Under the pieces are notes generated by a model. The model ran no database searches, was not told the origin of the DNA, and worked only from the letters and a program-made list of their open reading frames with translations. Source: Eubacteriales bacterium (lineage in GTDB: Bacteria > Bacillota > Clostridia > Lachnospirales > Lachnospiraceae). Taken from it: DNA of 64,000 nucleotides. Both the position numbers and the translations under genes were made by a program. The stretch is from contig JAUNSV010000002.1 of the NCBI GenBank assembly GCA_030539055.1, positions 1-64,000 of the forward strand. The letters run 5' to 3'. Of the stretch, positions 31,896 through 43,067 are shown one piece after another. Within the stretch, counting starts at the first letter, position 1. Every line of letters begins with the position of its first letter.

Positions 31896-32852
31896 TTATA
31901 TTAAATGATAAGCAAATCCTGCGTACTCTTTTTTTAAATAAATTAATCTCAAATTGCCTGATTCATCGAATGTTTTAGAATCTTCATCAAATTCATACCC
32001 TCTTTTTGTTAAATAGTAGTATGCTCTATCTACATTGTTGCAACCAATTGCAATATGACCATTAGTGCCTCTTCCTTTTTCATTCATAAATTCTATCTCA
32101 TTTCTTGCAAAATAAGATTGTGAAGTTTTTCTTTCTTTGAAACCAAAAAGTGCTTCTATTTTTTTTACTTCACTTATACTTTCTTCTTCGTTAGCACAGT
32201 TTATTCCTATATGTTTTAAATTGAATCCTAATAATTTATTGATAGTATCTTTTGTTAAACTAGTGATTTTTTCAAATTCATTATTTTTTATCAAGTCTTT
32301 TTTTACTATAAATGATCCACCTATTGCTATTACTTTTTTTGATTTAAAATAATCATCCACATTATCAAAATTTATACCACCTGTAGGCATAAATTTAACA
32401 TTTGGAAATGCAGCTCCAAGTGCATTAACCATTTTTATACCACCCATTTCTTCAATAGGAAATATTTTTACTATTTGTATTCCATACCCTATTGCTTTGG
32501 TAAGCTCGCTTGCTGTTTGAATTCCAGGATATACTGGTATTTTATTATCTAAGCAATACTTTACTAATTTCTCATCGAATCCAGGGGAAACTATGTATTT
32601 TGCGCCACACTCTATTGCTTCTTTTGCTTGTTCAATATTTAATATAGTACCAGCACCTACTAAAACATCTGGAAAATTTGATGAAATAATATTTATTACT
32701 TCTTTTGCTTTTTTTGTTCTAAATGTTATTTCTATAATATCTAAGCCTCCATTAATTAAAGCATTTGTTAATGGTATAGCTTTATTTTCATCATCTATTA
32801 CTACGACAGGTATTATTCCAGATTGGTATATTTTTTTATCCACATCATTCAT
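31896..32852 (-). CDS. eda: KDPG/KHG aldolase fused to a C-terminal VOC-like domain
   Basis: A 318-residue fusion. Residues 1-205 are a complete class I KDPG aldolase: IIEITFRT with the proton-shuttling Glu, VGAGTIL, YIVSPGFD, the Schiff-base lysine in IQIVKIFPIE (about residue 132) and FMPTGGIN phosphate-binding loop. It cleaves KDPG to pyruvate and glyceraldehyde 3-phosphate. Residues about 210-318 (LKHIGINCANEEES, GHIAIGCNNVDRAYYYLTKRGYEF, YAGFAYHLI) form a vicinal-oxygen-chelate/glyoxalase-like half, an addition of roughly 110 residues over ordinary Eda. It heads a two-gene operon with kdgK behind the promoter at 32926-32954. The role of the VOC half is unknown. Confidence 0.9.
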   Translation of the reverse strand: MNDVDKKIYQSGIIPVVVIDDENKAIPLTNALINGGLDIIEITFRTKKAKEVINIISSNFPDVLVGAGTILNIEQAKEAIECGAKYIVSPGFDEKLVKYCLDNKIPVYPGIQTASELTKAIGYGIQIVKIFPIEEMGGIKMVNALGAAFPNVKFMPTGGINFDNVDDYFKSKKVIAIGGSFIVKKDLIKNNEFEKITSLTKDTINKLLGFNLKHIGINCANEEESISEVKKIEALFGFKERKTSQSYFARNEIEFMNEKGRGTNGHIAIGCNNVDRAYYYLTKRGYEFDEDSKTFDESGNLRLIYLKKEYAGFAYHLI

Positions 32853-32925
32853 AATTATCTCCTTTTTGTTTTTCTTATTATATACTTTCTATGATAAAAA
32901 TTTTTCTTTTTTACATTATAAAAAT

Positions 32926-32954
32926 ATTATACTAATCTTCTATACTAAAGTCAA
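32926..32954 (-). promoter_or_regulatory. Promoter of the eda-kdgK operon
   Basis: Minus-strand TTGACT (32949-32954), a 17-base spacer and TATAAT (32926-32931), 73 bases upstream of the aldolase ATG. The rest of the 229-base divergent region (32853-33081) is A/T-rich with short imperfect inverted repeats but no recognised operator. Confidence 0.75.
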
Positions 32955-33027
32955 AACAAATATTTATTATTTCTTAACTTATTATGAATTATATTATATA
33001 AAAATGCTATTTTCAATTGAAAATATC

Positions 33028-33056
33028 TTCATAATTCAATCATTTTATGATATACT
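33028..33056 (+). promoter_or_regulatory. Putative promoter of the opp operon
   Basis: Plus-strand TTCATA (33028-33033), a 17-base spacer and TATACT (33051-33056), 25 bases before the oppB start. Confidence 0.55.
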
Positions 33057-33081
33057 TAAAAAAAATGAAAGGAAGAAAAAT

Positions 33082-33993
33082 ATGTTGGATTATACTTTAA
33101 AAAGAATAGGACTATGTATTGTTACTCTTTTTGTTATTATTACTATTACTTTTTTCGCTATGAATGCTATTCCTGGCGGTCCCTTTGATAGTGAAAAAGC
33201 ACCATCTGAACAAGTAAAACAAGTTCTACTAGAAAGATATCATTTGGATAAACCACTTGGTGAACAATACATATTATATTTAAAAAATCTTCTTCATGGA
33301 GATTTTGGTGTATCATTAAAAACTGGAAGAAATATAAGTGATACTATTTCACAAACTTTTGGTATATCCTTAAGTATTGGATTTAGAGCGATTTTTCTTT
33401 CACTTATTTTTGGTGTATTCTTTGGCTCTATTGCAGCTTTCAATAAAGATCTATTTTTGGACAGATTTATTATGCTTTTTACAACTCTCTTTGTCTCCAT
33501 ACCCTCCTTTATAGCTGCTAGCCTACTCCTTTATATATTTTGTTTAAAATTAAAATTAATTCCAGTATGGAGTGTAGAAAACAAAAATTATATTCTTCCT
33601 GTAATTTCTCTTATGATTTATCCATTAGCAAATATTAATAGACTAACCAGAACTAGTATGATAGATGCATTATCTCAAGACTATATTAGAACAGCTAAAG
33701 CAAAAGGTGTGAGCACAAAAAATATAATATTTAAGCATGCACTAAGAAATGCTTTGATACCTGTTCTCACTTATATAGGCCCTATGAGTGCTTTTGTAAT
33801 CACAGGCTCCTTTGTGATAGAAACTATTTTTACTATAGGTGGTCTTGGTATGGAATTTGTTACAAGTATTACTACTAGAGATTATTCTATGATTATGGGA
33901 ACTTCTATTTTCCTTGCTAGCTTAGTTGTTATTATTTCATTAATATCTGATTTGTGTTATAAAATTGTAGATCCAAGAATAAAGTTTGATTGA
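33082..33993 (+). CDS. oppB: Oligopeptide ABC transporter permease OppB
   Basis: A 303-residue permease of the DppB/OppB type. The first helix (MLDYTLKRIGLCIVTLFVII) leads to the conserved AMNAIPGGPFDSEKAPSE loop and LDKPLGEQYILYLKNLLHGDFG, family hallmarks. The EAA-type ATPase-contact loop DYIRTAKAKGVSTKNIIFKHALRNALIPV lies near residue 205. The open frame extends almost 500 bases upstream across the divergent eda gene, but the ATG at 33082 has AAAGGAAG just before it and matches family starts, so the longer form is rejected. First gene of oppBCDFA. Confidence 0.95.
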   Translation: MLDYTLKRIGLCIVTLFVIITITFFAMNAIPGGPFDSEKAPSEQVKQVLLERYHLDKPLGEQYILYLKNLLHGDFGVSLKTGRNISDTISQTFGISLSIGFRAIFLSLIFGVFFGSIAAFNKDLFLDRFIMLFTTLFVSIPSFIAASLLLYIFCLKLKLIPVWSVENKNYILPVISLMIYPLANINRLTRTSMIDALSQDYIRTAKAKGVSTKNIIFKHALRNALIPVLTYIGPMSAFVITGSFVIETIFTIGGLGMEFVTSITTRDYSMIMGTSIFLASLVVIISLISDLCYKIVDPRIKFD

Positions 33994-34000
33994 GGTATAT

Positions 34001-35086
34001 ATGAATGATAAAAATTTATTAAGTATGCAAATTGATTTGTCAAAATTTAATGATTTATCAAAAATAGATAAATCGTACTTTGACAAGCTTACAAATGAAG
34101 AAAAACAAAATGTAGAAGAAATCCCAAAACAAATCTCCTTTTATAAAGATGCTTTCATAAAAATAAAAAATAACCCTCTAGCAATATTAAGTATTATTCT
34201 ACTCTCTCTTGTAATCATTTTGATATTAGTAGGCATTTTTATTAATCCATATAAATATAATGAAATAATAACAATAAATGGAATAAGAGATGTAACAGCA
34301 CAAGATTTAAAACCTTTTGAATACTCTTTAAATGAATTGGAAGAAATAAAAAATGGAGCAAAAATTTTTCCACATATATTTGGAACAGATTCAATTTGCC
34401 GTGATTATTTTGCAAGAGTTGCTATAGGTAGTGCTATATCTCTTTTTATAGGAATTTTTGCAAGTATACTAGTTCTCATTATAGGGCTTATTTATGGTTC
34501 TATCTCTGGGTACTTAGGTGGCAAAGTGGATTTGATTATGATGCGAATTTGTGACATAATTTATTCTCTTCCAGATATGCTTATAATTATTTTGTTATCT
34601 GTCATTCTAAACCCACTGCTTTCAAATAATTTAACAGGAATATTTGCTGACTTAGGTGTAAATATTATTAGTTTACTTATAGTGTTTGCTCTCTTGTATT
34701 GGGTTTCCATTGCAAGACTTGTTCGTGGTCAAATATTGTCTATACGAAAAAATGAATATATTGAAGCATGCAAACTTATAGGTACTCCAGTGCCAAGAAT
34801 TATTAAAACACATATTATACCAAATTGTATGAGCATAATTTTTATTGCTACTACTTTACAAATACCATCGGCTATATTTACAGAAAGTTTTTTATCATTC
34901 GTAGGTCTTGGAGTTCAAATTCCTCTTTCTTCTCTTGGTTCTCTTGCAAATGACGCTAGAACAAGTATGAGTTTGTATCCTTACAAAATGATTATTCCTG
35001 CCTTATTAATCGCTATGCTAGTGTTATCATTCAATTTGCTTGGAGATGCATTTAGAGATGCATTCGATCCAAAGCTAAAAAAGTAG
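34001..35086 (+). CDS. oppC: Oligopeptide ABC transporter permease OppC
   Basis: A 361-residue permease. After a polar cytoplasmic N-terminal tail of about 45 residues come FYKDAFIKIKNNPLAI and the first helix. HIFGTDSICRDYFARVAIG (about residue 125) is the OppC GTD..GRD motif with Cys in place of Gly, and EYIEACKLIGTPVPRIIKTHIIPNC near residue 250 is the ATPase-contact loop. A TTG 15 bases earlier is in frame, but the ATG at 34001 has GAGGT at suitable spacing. It starts seven bases after the oppB stop. Confidence 0.95.
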   Translation: MNDKNLLSMQIDLSKFNDLSKIDKSYFDKLTNEEKQNVEEIPKQISFYKDAFIKIKNNPLAILSIILLSLVIILILVGIFINPYKYNEIITINGIRDVTAQDLKPFEYSLNELEEIKNGAKIFPHIFGTDSICRDYFARVAIGSAISLFIGIFASILVLIIGLIYGSISGYLGGKVDLIMMRICDIIYSLPDMLIIILLSVILNPLLSNNLTGIFADLGVNIISLLIVFALLYWVSIARLVRGQILSIRKNEYIEACKLIGTPVPRIIKTHIIPNCMSIIFIATTLQIPSAIFTESFLSFVGLGVQIPLSSLGSLANDARTSMSLYPYKMIIPALLIAMLVLSFNLLGDAFRDAFDPKLKK

Positions 35087-35092
35087 GTGAAT

Positions 35093-36070
35093 ATGAATAA
35101 TATATTGGAAGTAAAAAATTTAGAAACAACATTCATAAACAAAGACAATAAAACTAAAGTCTTAAATGGCATAAGTTTTGATTTGCAAAAAGAGCATATC
35201 CTAGGTATAGTTGGCGAATCGGGTTCTGGTAAATCTGTAACAATGCTTTCTATAATGAAACTCTTAGATAAAAGAAATACAACAATAAACGGAGAAATTC
35301 TATTTTGTGGCACAGATATATCTAAATACAATGAAAAAGAAATGCAAAAAATAAGAGGAAAAAAAATTTCGATGATATTCCAAGATCCTATGACAGCACT
35401 AAATCCTGTTTGGAGCATAGGATATCAATTATTGGAGAGTATACACTTGCATACGAATTTAAGAGGTACTAGTGCTAGTGATAAGATAATAGAATTATTA
35501 ACTCAAGTTGGAATAAGTGATGCAAAAGAAAGATTGTCTGTTTTTCCTCATGAATTATCTGGTGGTATGCGTCAAAGAGTTATGATTGCTATGGCTCTTT
35601 GCTCTAGCCCAGATATATTAATAGCAGATGAACCTACTACAGCACTTGATGTTACAGTTCAAGCAGAAATCCTAGAATTAATTAAATCATTAACAAAAGT
35701 TCATCATATGTCCACAATAATTATAACTCACGACTTAGGGGTAGTAGTTGATTTATGTGATGAAATATGCGTATTATATGCAGGTAGAATTTGTGAAAAG
35801 GGTACTACTTATGATATATTCAAAAATCCAAAACATGAATATACAAAAGGTTTACTCAATTCCGTTCCCACTCTAAAAGGAAATAAAAGAATGAACCCGA
35901 TCGGTGGCAACCCAATCAACATTCAGGCTCTTCCAAGTGGATGCCCTTTTTATCCAAGGTGCAAATCTTCTATGAAAATATGTAAAATTGTAGTTCCACC
36001 ACTTAAAAGTTTTGGCAATAACCATTATGCATCTTGTTTTATGAATGAAATTAATTCGGAGGACAAATAA
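35093..36070 (+). CDS. oppD: Oligopeptide ABC transporter ATPase OppD
   Basis: A 325-residue ATPase. Walker A is GESGSGKS (about residue 41), Q-loop IFQDPMTALNPVW, signature LSGGMRQRVMIAMAL, Walker B LIADEPTTALDV and switch His in ITHDLGVV. The C-terminal oligopeptide-transporter domain has PKHEYTKGLL and the cysteine-bearing GCPFYPRCKSSMKICK, which binds an Fe-S cluster in some relatives. A GTG at 35087 is also in frame; the ATG at 35093 is preferred because AGGTG lies before it, though the spacing is short. It works with OppF as a heterodimer. Confidence 0.94.
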   Translation: MNNILEVKNLETTFINKDNKTKVLNGISFDLQKEHILGIVGESGSGKSVTMLSIMKLLDKRNTTINGEILFCGTDISKYNEKEMQKIRGKKISMIFQDPMTALNPVWSIGYQLLESIHLHTNLRGTSASDKIIELLTQVGISDAKERLSVFPHELSGGMRQRVMIAMALCSSPDILIADEPTTALDVTVQAEILELIKSLTKVHHMSTIIITHDLGVVVDLCDEICVLYAGRICEKGTTYDIFKNPKHEYTKGLLNSVPTLKGNKRMNPIGGNPINIQALPSGCPFYPRCKSSMKICKIVVPPLKSFGNNHYASCFMNEINSEDK

Positions 36071-37048
36071 ATGAATACTCCAAAAACATTAATAGAAGTA
36101 AAAAATTATTCAAAATATTTTGAAATAAAAATTGGTTTTGGTAAAAAACAAACTTTAAAAGCTCTAGACAATGTAAATTTTACAATCAATGAGGGAGAAA
36201 CTCTTAGCGTTGTTGGAGAATCCGGATGCGGAAAAAGCACACTTGGTAAAACTCTCCTTGGCTTACATACAGAAACTACAGGTTCTTTGTATTATAAAAA
36301 TGAATTAGTAGATAATAATAAACGAAACTATTTAAGAGATAAAATGCAAATGATATTTCAAGATCCTTTTTCTTCTCTTAATCCAAGAATGACAATATTC
36401 GATATAATAAAAGAACCTATAGTTGTATTAAAAAAATATAAAAATAAAAATGATTTAGAAAAACAAGTTTATGATTTAATGGACTTAGTGGGTATTAGAA
36501 AAGAATATGCATCAAGATACCCTCACGAATTTTCTGGTGGGCAATTACAGCGTGTAGGCATAGCAAGAGCTTTATCTATTAATCCCGAATTTATAGTGTG
36601 CGATGAACCTGTGTCGGCACTTGATGTATCTATAAAAGCTCAAATAATTAATTTGTTTATGGATATTCAAGAAAAGAAACATATTACTTATCTTTTTATA
36701 ACACATGATTTATTATCTGCAAGATATGTAAGCACTAGAATTATGATAATGTATCTAGGTCAAATAATGGAAATTGGAGATGCAAATGAAATAATAAATA
36801 ACCCTCTTCACCCATATTCCAAAGTACTACTATCTTCTATATATGTACCAGATATAGATGAAAAAACTAAAACAAATCGTATCAAAGCTATAGGTGAAAT
36901 TCCATCCCCACTAAACGCTCCTATTGGTTGTCCATATTTTAATAGGTGCCCTTTTGCAAAAGACATATGTAAAAATGAAAAACCTATTTTAAAAGATGTT
37001 TATTTCAATAATAATTTAAATAGAAAGGTGGCGTGTCATATATGTTAA
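36071..37048 (+). CDS. oppF: Oligopeptide ABC transporter ATPase OppF
   Basis: A 325-residue ATPase. Walker A GESGCGKST (about residue 54), Q-loop IFQDPFSSLNPRM, signature FSGGQLQRVGIARAL, Walker B FIVCDEPVSALDVS and ITHDLLSARYVS identify it as the F-type partner. The C-terminal part has NPLHPYSKVLLSS and GCPYFNRCPFAKDICKNEKP, the conserved four-cysteine tail. The start has GGAGG eight bases upstream. Its end overlaps the ATG of the binding-protein gene by seven bases. Confidence 0.94.
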   Translation: MNTPKTLIEVKNYSKYFEIKIGFGKKQTLKALDNVNFTINEGETLSVVGESGCGKSTLGKTLLGLHTETTGSLYYKNELVDNNKRNYLRDKMQMIFQDPFSSLNPRMTIFDIIKEPIVVLKKYKNKNDLEKQVYDLMDLVGIRKEYASRYPHEFSGGQLQRVGIARALSINPEFIVCDEPVSALDVSIKAQIINLFMDIQEKKHITYLFITHDLLSARYVSTRIMIMYLGQIMEIGDANEIINNPLHPYSKVLLSSIYVPDIDEKTKTNRIKAIGEIPSPLNAPIGCPYFNRCPFAKDICKNEKPILKDVYFNNNLNRKVACHIC

Positions 37049-38778
37049 AAACGAATAAACAATATAAATTAATATTTATTATGATACTTCTATTTTCATC
37101 TTTTTTTCTATACTCTTGCCAAGATGTAAATGGAAATGACAATGTAGGACAGGGTGAAAAAGGAGTCGTAGCAAAAATTGACTGGACTGAATATGATACT
37201 CTAATTTCTAATATTGCAAAAGAAACAGATCCTACTTTGCGTATGCAAATGATGCATAGAGCAGAAGATATTATAATGGAAACTGGTGCACAAATTCCTA
37301 TTTTAAATGTTATAAATAAAACTTTAATAAAACCTGAACTTAGTGGTGTATATATTACATCTACTGGTTTAGTAAATATTAATCAAGCTTATATGCCAAA
37401 TAAAGATATTTTGAGTATGAAAATAATTACTGAACCATCGGGTTTAGCATTTAATCTTCTTTCTACAGAAGATACTACTTTTCTTTGCAATGCTACATCT
37501 GCTTTATTAACAAAAATAGATAAAAACGTAAAAACAACTCCTTCCGCAGCAAAAGATATAGAGATTTCTAGTGATAAACTTACTTATACTTTTACATTAA
37601 GAGATAATTTAAAATGGTCAAATGGAGAACAAATAAAAGCAAGTGATTATGAATACAGTTTTCGCTTTAGTGCTGCAGAAGAGAATGCAGCTGAAGCACG
37701 AGATTTTTTTAAGTATATAGATGGATATCCAAATAATTTAAATATAAAATCAATTGATAATGAAAATAAATTAATAATAAAACTTCAATATCCTTGTGCT
37801 TATTTTTTAGATATAGCAGCATATCCTACTTGTATGCCTCTTTATAAAAATGATATAGAAAATGCAAAAGGATATAAGGATGAAAATGGCAAAGTAATAG
37901 ATCCAAAAGCATGGGGTCAAACAATTGAAAGAGTGTATAGTGGACCTTATATAATAAGTGAATGGAAACACCGTGAATCTATAACATTAAAGAAAAATCC
38001 ATATTATTATGATAAAGATACTGTAAAAACTAATCAAATTGATTTAATGCTCACACAAGATGATGCTGTAATATATGATGCATATAAAAATGATGATATA
38101 TGTTTTATTAAAAAAGTATCATCAAGTATTCTTCGTGATATAAAAGATAGTGATGAGTTGCATAGTTTTCCTCTTCTATCTATAAATTATATGATTTTCA
38201 ATGTGAATTCCAAAATATTTGAGGGACTAACTATGGAAGAAGCATCTACTTTTAGAAAAGCTCTATTTTATGCTATAGATAGAGAATTTATAGTCAATGT
38301 TGCTTTACAAGGTGGTGCTATTCCTGCAAATACTCTTGTTCCAAGTGCTTGCTTAGATGGAAACGGTGAATTATTTAAGAAAAATAGTGAATATTATACT
38401 TATCCAGATAATACTAATGGTGAACTAGGATATTTTCCAATAAAAAGAGATATAGAAAAAACTAGACAAATTCTTAAATCATTAGGATATAAATTTGATA
38501 AAAATAACAAACTTGATACTCCTATTACTATAGAATATTTGTTTAATCCATCACAAATAAATTCCCTAGTTGCAGAGTGTATACAACAAGACTTATTGGA
38601 ACTTGGTATAAGAATTAAACCTACTAGTATGGAAATAGCTCAATTTCTTTCTCAAAGAGCAACAGGGCAGTTTAATTTATCTCGTGGTGGTTGGAATTTG
38701 GATTATGATGATCCAAGTTCATTTCTAGATATAAATGCAAGTAAAAGCCCAAATAATTTTGCACAATATGGAAAATAA
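37042..38778 (+). CDS. OppA-like peptide-binding lipoprotein with apparent circular permutation
   Basis: A 578-residue family 5 extracellular binding protein. The signal peptide ends in a lipobox (FLYSC, lipidated Cys26). Residues about 46-118 (YDTLISNIAKETDPTLRMQ, MMHRAEDIIMETGAQIPI, then LSGVYITSTGLVNINQAYM) look like the segment that normally ends OppA proteins. Residue 124 onwards is the normal mature N-terminus (LTYTFTLRDNLKWSNGEQ, ASDYEYSFRFS). The protein then stops at NNFAQYGK, exactly where that end segment would usually follow. It therefore appears permuted and not truncated. The ATG at 37042 overlaps oppF. AGGTGG lies 10 bases upstream; a GTG at 37033 is possible. A terminator follows. 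Confidence 0.88.
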   Translation: MLKTNKQYKLIFIMILLFSSFFLYSCQDVNGNDNVGQGEKGVVAKIDWTEYDTLISNIAKETDPTLRMQMMHRAEDIIMETGAQIPILNVINKTLIKPELSGVYITSTGLVNINQAYMPNKDILSMKIITEPSGLAFNLLSTEDTTFLCNATSALLTKIDKNVKTTPSAAKDIEISSDKLTYTFTLRDNLKWSNGEQIKASDYEYSFRFSAAEENAAEARDFFKYIDGYPNNLNIKSIDNENKLIIKLQYPCAYFLDIAAYPTCMPLYKNDIENAKGYKDENGKVIDPKAWGQTIERVYSGPYIISEWKHRESITLKKNPYYYDKDTVKTNQIDLMLTQDDAVIYDAYKNDDICFIKKVSSSILRDIKDSDELHSFPLLSINYMIFNVNSKIFEGLTMEEASTFRKALFYAIDREFIVNVALQGGAIPANTLVPSACLDGNGELFKKNSEYYTYPDNTNGELGYFPIKRDIEKTRQILKSLGYKFDKNNKLDTPITIEYLFNPSQINSLVAECIQQDLLELGIRIKPTSMEIAQFLSQRATGQFNLSRGGWNLDYDDPSSFLDINASKSPNNFAQYGK

Positions 38779-38834
38779 AATATATTAAATAATCAATATA
38801 CAAAACTATAATATAGTTTTAGTATTAAAATAAA

Positions 38835-38874
38835 AAGATGTCACGGAGTATGATTTGTGGCATCTTCTTTTTTT
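38835..38874 (+). terminator. Intrinsic terminator of the opp operon
   Basis: A ten-base-pair stem (AAGATGTCAC at 38835-38844 with GTGGCATCTT at 38857-38866, one G-U pair) is followed by CTTTTTTT. It lies 57 bases after the binding-protein stop and ahead of the convergent alcohol dehydrogenase gene. Apart from this hairpin, the gap 38779-38946 holds only AT-rich sequence. Confidence 0.85.
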
Positions 38875-40219: not shown

Positions 40220-41401
40220 TTAAAAATATGATACATTGATATTTTTACCCATTTTTTCTAGAGCTTTTGTTAATTCATCTACTATGCTCATTTTTTTATC
40301 AAAACCTAAATTTGTATCATTTATATATGCTGCATTCGATGCTTTTCCTACAAAAAAATTAATATCTGTTGCTTCTTCAAAAAGCATTTTGGATACAAGA
40401 GATGCACCATCTTTTTTATAGCTCCATTTTTCAAAAGCCTTGTTGTCTAATAAATAATCATTTGCATACTCTAATACTTTTTTTAATGTTATTAATCCCT
40501 CTGTTACAAGATCGCACCCACAAAGGTAAGATATAGGTGGTATTTCAGGATCTAAATTGTTTGAACTAGGCTCTAATTCTTTATTTAAATATTTTGATGC
40601 GATTTTAGATGTTGTGCCACCACATATAATATGTTTACCCTCTTTTGCAAAAAATAAATTTAACATTTTTTCACAATCGCTCTTTATTTCAGGTGGTCCA
40701 AAGCATAAATTTACACTTAGTCTCTTTTTAATTTTAATTGCACAAACACTTGCATCATCTAGTGGCTTGTTTTTATATAATCTATTTGTTTCTTCAAGAA
40801 GTATGGTTGCTAATGTTTTTGCATTAAATCCTACATAATAAAATGTTGTTAAAAAGTCAATTATGTCGCTTCTTTTCCACTTTAAATTATAATTTATACT
40901 CTCTCCTGCATGCTCCACTCCATCTGAAAAAGCTACTAGTATGTCATTTTCTTTTAAATCAATCTCTGTTTTAATTATTTCTTTATTTGAAATATTAATC
41001 TCATAAAATGGTAATTCAAAATTTTTTCCATCTCTAAGTAATATAGTTTTTGGATTATCATATTGTATTACTTCTGCTTTTTCATTGTTTTGAATTCTTA
41101 TAATTGTAAATGTTGAATATGCTACTTTTCTTTCTTTACAAACAGGAAGTGTATCTATTATTGTTTTTACACATTCTTCTAAATTTAAACCCTCACAAAG
41201 CATTGTTGATATAATTTTTGATGTTAAAATTGATAATATATTTGCTTTTACTCCACTTCCTAGTCCATCTGCAAGCACTATTATTTCATAATTATTTTCT
41301 TTATTATTCAATACTTCTATATGATCACCACACAGCTCTTCGTTGTAGTGATTGATACTCACATATCCTATATCAGAAAATAAATTATTCACTGTCTTCA
41401 T
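40220..41401 (-). CDS. PP2C/SpoIIE-type phosphatase linked to a hydrogenase-like sensor
   Basis: A 393-residue protein with an N-terminal SpoIIE-like phosphatase core (about 1-225): VLADGLGSGVKANILS with the metal-binding Asp, DILVAFSDGVEHAG, and PLDDASVCAIKI, all typical PPM-fold metal motifs. The C-terminal 165 residues (LCFGPPEIKSDCEKMLNLFF, ICGGTTSKIASKYL) form a separate alpha/beta domain that I recognise only as the partner domain found in this protein type. It overlaps the hydrogenase-like gene by 17 bases, so the two are co-translated. Inferred role: dephosphorylation output of a redox or H2-sensing module. Target unknown. Confidence 0.85.
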   Translation of the reverse strand: MKTVNNLFSDIGYVSINHYNEELCGDHIEVLNNKENNYEIIVLADGLGSGVKANILSILTSKIISTMLCEGLNLEECVKTIIDTLPVCKERKVAYSTFTIIRIQNNEKAEVIQYDNPKTILLRDGKNFELPFYEINISNKEIIKTEIDLKENDILVAFSDGVEHAGESINYNLKWKRSDIIDFLTTFYYVGFNAKTLATILLEETNRLYKNKPLDDASVCAIKIKKRLSVNLCFGPPEIKSDCEKMLNLFFAKEGKHIICGGTTSKIASKYLNKELEPSSNNLDPEIPPISYLCGCDLVTEGLITLKKVLEYANDYLLDNKAFEKWSYKKDGASLVSKMLFEEATDINFFVGKASNAAYINDTNLGFDKKMSIVDELTKALEKMGKNINVSYF

Positions 41402-43067
41402 TTCTTATTTGATCCTTTAATTTTGTGAGTGCTATTTTAGTTTCTGCTGTAGTTTCTCCAAGGAGTGATGCTATTTCTTGTACTATTCTCATTTGTTTTT
41501 CTACTACTTTATCTGCTACTTCAATAGTTTTTTTACTTATTTCTTTCTTTTTATTATTTTCATTCTCTTCATTGCTTACATCTCTAAAAATCGCTATTAA
41601 ATTTTTTGATACTTTTTCTTCTACTATAGTAAGCTCCAAGAATTTATCAAACTCTGCATAATAATTTCTTTTATTAAAAACTTTTTCTTTTTTTTCTCTT
41701 ACCAAAATAAAATCACTAGGATTTATTATACGAACAAGTGGCTCTCCTAACACATCTTGTTTTTGTTTTATATTTAATAACTTTTGTGCTGCATTGTTGA
41801 TTTCATCTATTTCATAATGTTCATTTACAACCATTATACCGTTTGGTGTATTATCTAAAATATTATTTGTAAAACTTTCAGATTTTTTCATAAGAAAAGG
41901 TAAACACATTGTAATCTCTGCTTTGCCATAATAAATTGCTTTTGCTTTTTCTTTGCAAGTATCATATCCACAACTACCACAATTTAATTCATCCTCTTTC
42001 TTTGTTTTTCCCATTTGTTTGAGAATATTTAATATATCTTCTTCTGATGGTTCTGTTATTTTATTTTGCGTAGTGGTATATTTAAATAACAAATCTTTTG
42101 ATTCTAACTCTTTTATATCAAAATCTTTTTTTTTAGCTGTTTTAATTACATTGTTGTAATTTGTTAATGGAGTATTCCCTTTCTTTTGCATTATGGGACC
42201 ATTTGAGCAACTACCAATGCAAGATGACATCTCTATAAAACAATGATTGATTTCTCCATTTTGTATGTCTTCTAAAACATTTTTACAATTCTCAATACCA
42301 TCTACAGAAATATATGTGTATAGTGGATTTTTATTAAGCATCGATTTTAATATGCCACCATTTGTAGGAAATAATCTTGTAAGCCCTTTTTCTTCATTTT
42401 TTACTGTTTCATTTTTTAATGTTATTTTTGCTTTCTCAAACATAGAATTTAATTCATCAAATGTGAGTGCTGCATCTATTTTATCTCGATATGCTTCATC
42501 CTTTTTTGATAAGCAAGGGCCAATAAATACTATTTTTGCTTTTGGGTATCTTCTTTTTATATCTGTAGCATGTGCATACATTGGTGTTTTTACTGGTGCT
42601 AAGTATTTTACTAGTTTAGGATAATATTTTTCTATAATTAAATTTATTGTATGACAACAAGATGTGATTATGACATTTTGCTTTTCTTCTAATACTATTT
42701 TTTCATACTCTTTTTTTACCATCAAGGCACCTTTTGCTGTTTCTTCTGCATGAGAGAATCCTAATTCTTTTAATGCTCTTTCTAGTGAAGTAAAATTTAG
42801 TTCTTTAAAATATGCAGCAAATGATGGAGCTACACTCGCTATAACTTTGTCTTTTCCATTAAGCAATGCTTCTACTATTTCTCTTTCTTCAGCAATTTGT
42901 TTTGCGTTTTGTGGACATACTACAAAACAATTTCCACAAAGAATACATTCATCTTGTATTACTGTAGCCAAATTACCAGAAAATCTAATCGATTTTACAG
43001 GACAATGTCTTATACATTTATAACAATTTTTACAATTTGATTTTTCAAATTTTAAAAATTCTACCAT
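41385..43067 (-). CDS. [FeFe]-hydrogenase-like PAS sensor protein (HydS-like)
   Basis: A 560-residue protein. Two [4Fe-4S] ferredoxin motifs lie at Cys 12, 15, 18, 22 and Cys 41, 44, 47, 51. A hydrogenase large-subunit domain follows (about 75-320) with altered H-cluster motifs: TSCCHTI (canonical TSCCPxW), GPCLSKKDEA (canonical MPCxxKxxE) and SSCIGSCSNGP (canonical MACxGGCxxGGG); the four cluster cysteines are kept. Then come a CGSCGYDTC Fe-S motif, a PAS domain (NNILDNTPNGIMVVNEHYEIDE) and a C-terminal helix. This order matches group C sensory hydrogenases described in Clostridia. Enzymatic turnover is doubtful because conserved Pro and Met positions differ. AGGAGA precedes the ATG. Confidence 0.88.
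   Translation of the reverse strand: MVEFLKFEKSNCKNCYKCIRHCPVKSIRFSGNLATVIQDECILCGNCFVVCPQNAKQIAEEREIVEALLNGKDKVIASVAPSFAAYFKELNFTSLERALKELGFSHAEETAKGALMVKKEYEKIVLEEKQNVIITSCCHTINLIIEKYYPKLVKYLAPVKTPMYAHATDIKRRYPKAKIVFIGPCLSKKDEAYRDKIDAALTFDELNSMFEKAKITLKNETVKNEEKGLTRLFPTNGGILKSMLNKNPLYTYISVDGIENCKNVLEDIQNGEINHCFIEMSSCIGSCSNGPIMQKKGNTPLTNYNNVIKTAKKKDFDIKELESKDLLFKYTTTQNKITEPSEEDILNILKQMGKTKKEDELNCGSCGYDTCKEKAKAIYYGKAEITMCLPFLMKKSESFTNNILDNTPNGIMVVNEHYEIDEINNAAQKLLNIKQKQDVLGEPLVRIINPSDFILVREKKEKVFNKRNYYAEFDKFLELTIVEEKVSKNLIAIFRDVSNEENENNKKKEISKKTIEVADKVVEKQMRIVQEIASLLGETTAETKIALTKLKDQIRNEDSE

Follow-up and report, generated by a model that had tools for sequence, protein, structure and literature searches.

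A probable natural circular permutant of the oligopeptide-binding protein OppA at the end of an opp operon, and its recurrence in other genomes

The gene at 37042-38778 of the window (the whole analysed stretch of 64,000 nucleotides) very probably encodes a working oligopeptide-binding lipoprotein of an Opp importer, circularly permuted by nature. The order of its parts is the one sequence feature tested in which the protein is not OppA-like; the surprising part is the recurrence of the permuted order in other genomes and the repeated change of order among relatives. We infer the fold, peptide binding and anchoring, and likewise that this particular copy is functional. Descriptions of a permuted OppA, oligopeptide-binding protein or solute-binding protein were searched for in open PubMed Central full texts (subscription papers and preprints lie outside this scope) and none was found, in agreement with the original prediction that no such case had been described in this transporter family.

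The gene and the order of its parts

The open reading frame lies on the forward strand, starts with ATG at 37042, ends with TAA and encodes 578 amino acids. The features of the locus are as follows.

32593..33993, + strand: oppB-like permease (open frame as listed; BPD_transp_1)
33986..35086, + strand: oppC-like permease (BPD_transp_1 and OppC_N)
35087..36070, + strand: oppD-like ATPase (ABC_tran and oligo_HPY)
36071..37048, + strand: oppF-like ATPase (ABC_tran and oligo_HPY)
37042..37119, + strand: putative signal peptide and lipobox-like cysteine, residues 1-26, ...FFLYSC (by eye from the translation)
37120..37185, + strand: N-terminal linker, residues 27-48, ending in ..KIDW before the YD that opens the moved segment
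37186..37374, + strand: moved segment, corresponding to the canonical C-terminal segment, residues 49-111, profile positions 432-494
37375..37410, + strand: fusion linker from the canonical C-terminus to the canonical N-terminus, residues 112-123 (12 residues by the profile)
37411..38775, + strand: canonical N-terminal and middle part, residues 124-578, profile positions 2-431/433
38776..38778, + strand: stop codon at the cut site, after NNFAQYGK (from the translation)
38835..38866, + strand: intrinsic terminator-like hairpin (1 found; shuffle mean 0.1)

A phmmer search against solved structures pairs residues 120-572 with positions 18-447 of B. subtilis OppA (8are), and residues 50-118 with positions 456-524, which are the end of OppA. 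The latter match is weak alone (9.4 bits against one sequence); for this reason a dedicated C-terminal-segment profile was built, its source being 42 canonical C-terminal segments only. Residues 46-118 score 57.2 bits against it, the maximum over 20,000 shuffles of the segment being 15.5, and residues 119-578 have no match to it. Thus the segment following the lipoprotein signal is the usual C-terminal part, as originally predicted, with the homologous part trimmed to 49-111, and the alignment pairs it with the C-terminal and not the N-terminal part of ordinary OppA proteins. The mature N-terminus does follow the moved segment; its proposed start at residue 119 has to be shifted and lies nearer to 124.

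In a six-frame scan of the whole window, the C-terminal-segment profile has a single above-chance match (37192-37368), and no second C-terminal segment is found above chance downstream of the stop in any frame (the next best scores 4.2 bits); the C-terminus is therefore otherwise incomplete, which was also anticipated. The canonical OppA profile of 503 positions matches above chance at 37042-38778 alone within the window. Its positions 432-494 fall at 37186-37374 and are followed by positions 2-433 at 37411-38781, so that the coverage is near-whole. The N-terminal, middle and C-terminal segments of family 5 are all present by the profile in a non-canonical order, with the C-terminal segment ahead of the rest, and on this ground we class the protein as a permuted variant rather than an ordinary SBP_bac_5/OppA member. 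The cut (type I below) is at profile 431|432; the protein ends where the moved segment would continue, as had been supposed, both parts are homologous to one parent, and nothing is lost at the cut.

Pfam reports one SBP_bac_5 domain (PF00496, residues 166-572, 218.6 bits at a cut-off of 32.4) as the sole family at E up to 0.01; a Type I / Cluster B sugar-binding domain is absent at the same threshold. On P0005 the match of the Pfam family-5 model spans 86-481 and ends just before the type I cut, so the rearrangement leaves no Pfam trace, which is an annotation blind spot. The lipobox-like cysteine is residue 26, and the simple lipobox pattern has no match on its LYSC. A W-x-x-[YF][DN] ending is seen in the majority of the other type I permutants; canonical orthologues from clade I have it in their loop.

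Two permeases and two ATPases upstream, recognised by Pfam, define an oppB-C-D-F-A operon with the permuted gene in the last place. The start of this gene overlaps the oppF-like gene by 7 bases, and the true start of the oppB-like gene is probably near 33076, judged by eye. The hairpin begins 57 bases 3' of the stop, which gives the gene a natural-looking end. The window genome (1.51 Mb, 83 contigs, 99% complete) has one PF00496 match, the protein described here, which is the sole family-5 binding protein found in it. Within its genus, a PF00496 match occurs in 1 of 13 genomes (that of the window), 8 of the 13 being less than 90% complete or more than 5% contaminated.

The original prediction spoke of "one intact fold" with moved termini; this is implied by the near-complete coverage, the short linkers and the purifying selection in relatives. 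Two AlphaFold models have mean pLDDT of 58.6 and 52.8, a low confidence probably due to too few input sequences. The alignment used for the first of them (A2) had the ends of some pieces misplaced, and another (A8) was used for the second; the first model departs from the structures by an rmsd of 12.7-18.2 A over about 124-572, the moved segment being outside the comparison. Scans of viral contigs with the window protein and with alignment A4 gave zero matches; those with alignments A1 and A3 gave 5 and 7 loci of distant canonical proteins, used as structure-prediction input only. Among the solved chains, with the best stretch per chain considered, no best stretch crosses the fusion.

Recurrence of the permuted order and four cut types

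The classified set comprises 126 distinct ORFs, 76 canonical and 50 permuted. The permuted ones fall into four types by the cut in profile coordinates: I at 431|432, II at ~109-120|108, III at ~338-350|338-346 and IV at 260-263|259-262. Every unbroken permuted protein covers nearly the whole profile once. Measured on the profile, the fusion linkers have 3-12 residues in type I (37 rows), 2 in type II, 9-20 in type III and 4-6 in type IV. In Salmonella OppA numbering (1b05), cuts I, III and IV are at ~441, ~350 and ~288; we take these positions to belong to domain III of OppA and the old termini to domain I. The simple lipobox pattern matches 38 of 45 permuted rows. The lipobox cysteine is missing in L091 and in three proteins of type III (L138-L140), the latter three being almost without a linker; by eye, the four look like signal-peptidase-I exports.

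Proteins with the same order and the same cut occur in at least 48 genomes. This type I tally combines 37 ORF rows from the main classification with 11 from a further one, and includes G1430 (cut by a contig end) and G307 (internal TAG). Distinct genomes with types II, III and IV number at least 3, 7 and 3, for a total of at least 61. Genomes listed as a single contig are found among permutants of type I (G221, G719, G307), III (G761, G1283) and IV (G1047).

The sample counts in this paragraph include the window genome. With the window protein as the query, 3 of 61 genomes have colinear (permuted) matches; in the family sample, at least 27 of 398 genomes have permuted proteins, the order being checked in each. 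With a permuted relative as the query, at least 16 of 393 genomes in the sample of the taxonomic order and at least 9 of 391 in that of the class are permuted; a doubled canonical query found the permuted order in at least 5 of 299 genomes of the phylum sample. The samples overlap, and 2-3 candidates per genome were scored in the large ones (17 in the 79-genome genus below), so the counts are lower bounds.

Chain order seems stable within genera. One genus has a permuted match in 14 of 79 genomes, with 14 of 14 matches permuted; in another, 0 of 29 genomes have a permuted protein and 19 have a canonical match (19 of 19, the canonical state being read from match ranges). At 26 of 27 permutant loci examined, opp genes adjoin on the same strand; the exception is the L115 locus, where the sole opp neighbour is an oppF on the opposite strand.

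Several candidates were discarded. L112, L113 and L114 appeared to have a second cut point by match ranges and proved canonical with inserts when the order was checked; L031, at first perhaps permuted, is canonical by the same check. The G1067 candidate starts at a contig edge and was left out of the counts. A 1149-aa open frame in G1102, considered as a fused tandem, is a region of three separate canonical ORFs, and a 1060-aa frame in G637, considered as an intermediate, is a fusion of a kinase and a binding protein.

History of the order and alternative explanations

A tree of 116 sequences in the canonical register needs 12 order changes; like all such counts here, this one is blind to gain versus loss of permutation. 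To arrive at the 116, 9 canonical rows were removed from the classified ORFs because their coverage was short or their score low, and so was the permuted row L037 of G307, which is broken by an internal TAG. In a 58-row tree, whose rows and those of the constraint tests were chosen from the 116, type I needs 7 changes, and at least 5 of them are forced by well-supported branches. A single type I group is seen in 0 of 200 bootstrap trees of these 58 rows; forcing type I into one clade costs 452 log-likelihood units (p 4e-61), and a constraint that unites the 11 canonical members of clade I costs 442 (p 0.002). Within the type I clade, orthologues of the two orders are intermixed.

The neighbouring OppF, as a separate marker, requires 8 changes, at least 4 of them forced (55 loci with adjacent oppF; L069, L070 and L045 were left out). 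A tree of the moved segment only (53 rows, few columns) needs 7 changes, 2 of them forced, and its p value for a single clade is 0.007. In an analysis of 37 of the 116 rows, type III as one clade is rejected (p 0.003), and well-supported branches give two changes for type IV and one for type II; types III and IV occupy two separate tree places each. Long branches are a caveat for the history: the window gene and L033, its closest relative, have them, as does L061 in the OppF tree.

The canonical clade I orthologues L058 (G173), L004 (G013) and L078 (G652) occupy the same place behind oppF as the permutants, but their parts stand in the canonical order, and where the permutants are cut they carry a short insert. 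The identity between canonical L058 and permuted L062 is 82% in the main part and 65% in the moved segment with part of the loop, which argues for the same lineage of both pieces.

The moved segment is under purifying selection in relatives. Its dS is saturated in 6 of 10 type I pairs; in the other four (dS 0.45-2.08, rough) dN/dS is 0.095, 0.228, 0.124 and 0.038, and in the main part of the same pairs 0.061, 0.151, 0.103 and 0.043. The type II pair and one of two type III pairs have dN/dS of 0.035-0.094 in both parts; dS is saturated in the second type III pair. In the canonical-permuted pair L058/L062 the moved segment is saturated and the main part has dN/dS of 0.092; for the window gene and L033, dS is saturated in both parts.

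At the cut site, the loop is tight in most of the outgroup canonical proteins shown (e.g., YSNTEYD), with no or nearly no insert. The sister clade carries ~28 extra residues there, which start with QFGKG or QLGKG and end with GTW-[AS]-ETYD, and the clade I canonicals have a short, mostly S/T/A/P-rich insert before W..YD (e.g., QLGKDSTSSAPDWKEYD). Considering these inserts, the loop probably grew before or together with the first permutation. Among unbroken type I rows, 32 of 36 stop directly at the matching G-[KR], and the remaining four (L043, L069, L070, L091) have a tail of 5-8 residues; many type I permuted proteins begin with ..APxWxxYD. We infer that the linker-like loop is a favoured place of permutation owing to its tolerance and perhaps to recombination with a lipoprotein linker.

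Could the window gene be an artefact, produced from a canonical oppA by a contig join that scrambled it or by a frameshift that cut it? The genome is a draft, but the gene is well inside a 96.5 kb contig, between oppF and the terminator-like hairpin, and the same order with the same cut in at least 48 genomes, some of them single-contig, makes a misassembly or frameshift at 38778 a very poor explanation; we consider this possibility negligible. It is very improbable, if less so, that the C-terminal segment of one paralogue was placed ahead of a truncated other one. The moved segment is just ~65 residues long and has diverged in the window copy, which leaves room for such a chimera; however, the two pieces are similarly identical to the same canonical relative (e.g., 55% and 63% for L057, 54% and 60% for L034), and the segment-only tree, despite its few columns, is interleaved like the main tree. 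We give a shade less credence to a broken or decoy gene, that is, a non-transporting peptide receptor left from the rearrangement. The divergence of the window copy, the saturated dS of its pair and the in-frame TAG in one permutant (G307) agree with it, but the purifying selection on the moved segment in relatives does not, nor does the position of the sole family-5 binding protein found in the genome beside Pfam-matching permease and ATPase genes.

Two further explanations accept the permutation and concern its cause and history. It is conceivable, although we think it unlikely, that the permutation was selected because it shifts the tether to the other lobe: the lipobox pattern is common in permuted rows, and cuts I, III and IV presumably lie in one part of the fold, whereas L138-L140 and L091 have no lipobox cysteine and both orders are found behind oppF among orthologues. 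That clade I was permuted once, long ago and at its base, and that several of its lineages later returned to the canonical order is a much more serious proposal, which we regard as plausible but somewhat short of probable. The deepest clade I lineages are permuted, and the recurrence of the stop at one residue is easier to reconcile with one origin plus reversions than with many independent truncations; on the other side, the tree counts do not tell gain from loss. A single reversion is rejected, since the canonical members of clade I do not hold as one clade; two or more would have been required, and each of these probably took several steps.

Proposed mechanism and relation to known systems

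We presume that the permuted protein would keep the standard family-5 fold, with the old N- and C-termini joined by a short linker and the new termini in a loop ~70 residues before the old C-terminus (Salmonella OppA ~441). It would be exported and anchored by its N-terminal cysteine via a flexible linker, bind peptides in the cleft and pass them to OppBCDF as usual; the membrane anchor would now be on the other lobe. With a flexible linker the position of the termini may be nearly neutral, and hence the change recurs and may revert; proteins without a lipobox cysteine (L138-L140, L091) are not covered by this proposal of a neutral, anchored linker. The most likely origin is an in-frame tandem duplication of the coding region with subsequent loss of the redundant ends, which may have been helped by a previously grown cut-site loop resembling a lipoprotein linker; a C-N-C intermediate may have occurred on the way to the change or reversion. 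One genome (G124) contains three tandem canonical oppA-like genes, which are raw material for permutation by duplication, and neither C-N-C nor fused tandem intermediates are found among the classified ORFs. DNA methyltransferases, whose fold is unrelated, are likewise shaped by circular permutation and hold several permuted classes. A review (PMC3320104) presents the permutation-by-duplication model and names these enzymes as a family with documented intermediates of this kind.

Compared with B. subtilis OppA (8are) and DppE (8ay0), the window protein has by sequence all the parts of the fold and likewise belongs to an opp operon; the difference is that its last ~70 residues come first and the termini are in another loop. 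Canonical family-5 peptide-binding proteins are those we take to constitute cluster C. The closest precedent is Tp0684 (MglB-2) of Treponema pallidum, a circularly permuted glucose-binding protein for which its authors proposed the name "Cluster Bc" (PMC4990184). Like the window protein, for which the tether is predicted here, it is a natural circular permutant and a membrane-tethered binding protein of an ABC transporter, and its relatives of the same topology occur in Gram-positive bacteria; unlike it, Tp0684 is a Type I / Cluster B sugar binder with its own cut (same source). The accessible passages of that paper describe one permuted topology in two main clades, in contrast to the several cuts and order changes among OppA orthologues, and raise a membrane-anchoring advantage of the permutation (PMC4990184).

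The present family offers a test of the idea, derived from Tp0684, that permutation serves membrane anchoring, and natural permutants of a large peptide binder may be useful as biosensor scaffolds. To our knowledge, most studies of natural circular permutations have dealt with single events of long ago. In the present case, permuted and canonical orthologues are available by the dozen within one family of transporter proteins and share their operon surroundings; the four cuts and the repeated change of order make the origin, intermediates and cost of circular permutation directly testable. We believe it likely that the chain order of family 5 in this phylum (probably in Clostridia) can evolve and may even be reversed. 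On this reading, and provided that the canonical order came first, four loops have seen at least six separate permutations (type I at least once, II once, III and IV twice each); the orthologues that follow the same oppF in one clade have switched order five times or more, each time at precisely the same loop, and no loss of constraint is visible.

Permutants cut at other loops

The type II, III and IV family-5 binding proteins are permuted at three loops other than the type I cut, and their hosts belong to other families of the same phylum.

Permuted family-5 binding proteins by type (loci)
Type II: L109, L110, L111
Type III: L115, L117-L119, L138-L140
Type IV: L116, L120, L131

When the genes neighbouring these permutants are considered, opp genes adjoin all of them except L115; the neighbourhood of L131 was read from L137, a longer stretch of the same locus. 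In three of the type III proteins (L138, L139 and L140) the signal looks cleavable, the lipobox cysteine is absent and the linker is almost nil. Our guess is that their hosts may have two membranes and that these proteins may be unanchored in the periplasm.

Canonical relatives and other genes of the window

Three canonical oppA-like genes stand in a row within about 5 kb in genome G124 (L186). In genome G637 (L184:1211-4390), a complete canonical SBP_bac_5 domain is joined by a linker to a protein kinase domain, and the fusion gene adjoins another oppA-like gene; the fusion has the look of a receptor kinase whose sensor part binds peptides.

Window 40220-43067: PAS-containing iron-sulphur protein of the hydrogenase type

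Its gene adjoins that of a SpoIIE-type phosphatase, and the two look like a redox-sensing pair.

The type I cut site

The type I permuted oppA of genome G307 (L037 / L123) is interrupted by a TAG in its reading frame, about two thirds of the way through; either the gene is broken or the TAG is a sequencing error. This genome is listed as one contig.

Pfam annotation cannot reveal the type I permutation, because the family-5 model PF00496 stops just before the type I cut (its match on the protein P0005 covers 86-481). Exactly at the type I cut site, a canonical sister clade has a conserved insert of about 28 residues ending in GTW-[AS]-ETYD.

Canonical sister clade with the cut-site insert (loci)
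L083, L084, L086, L087, L104, L106, L112
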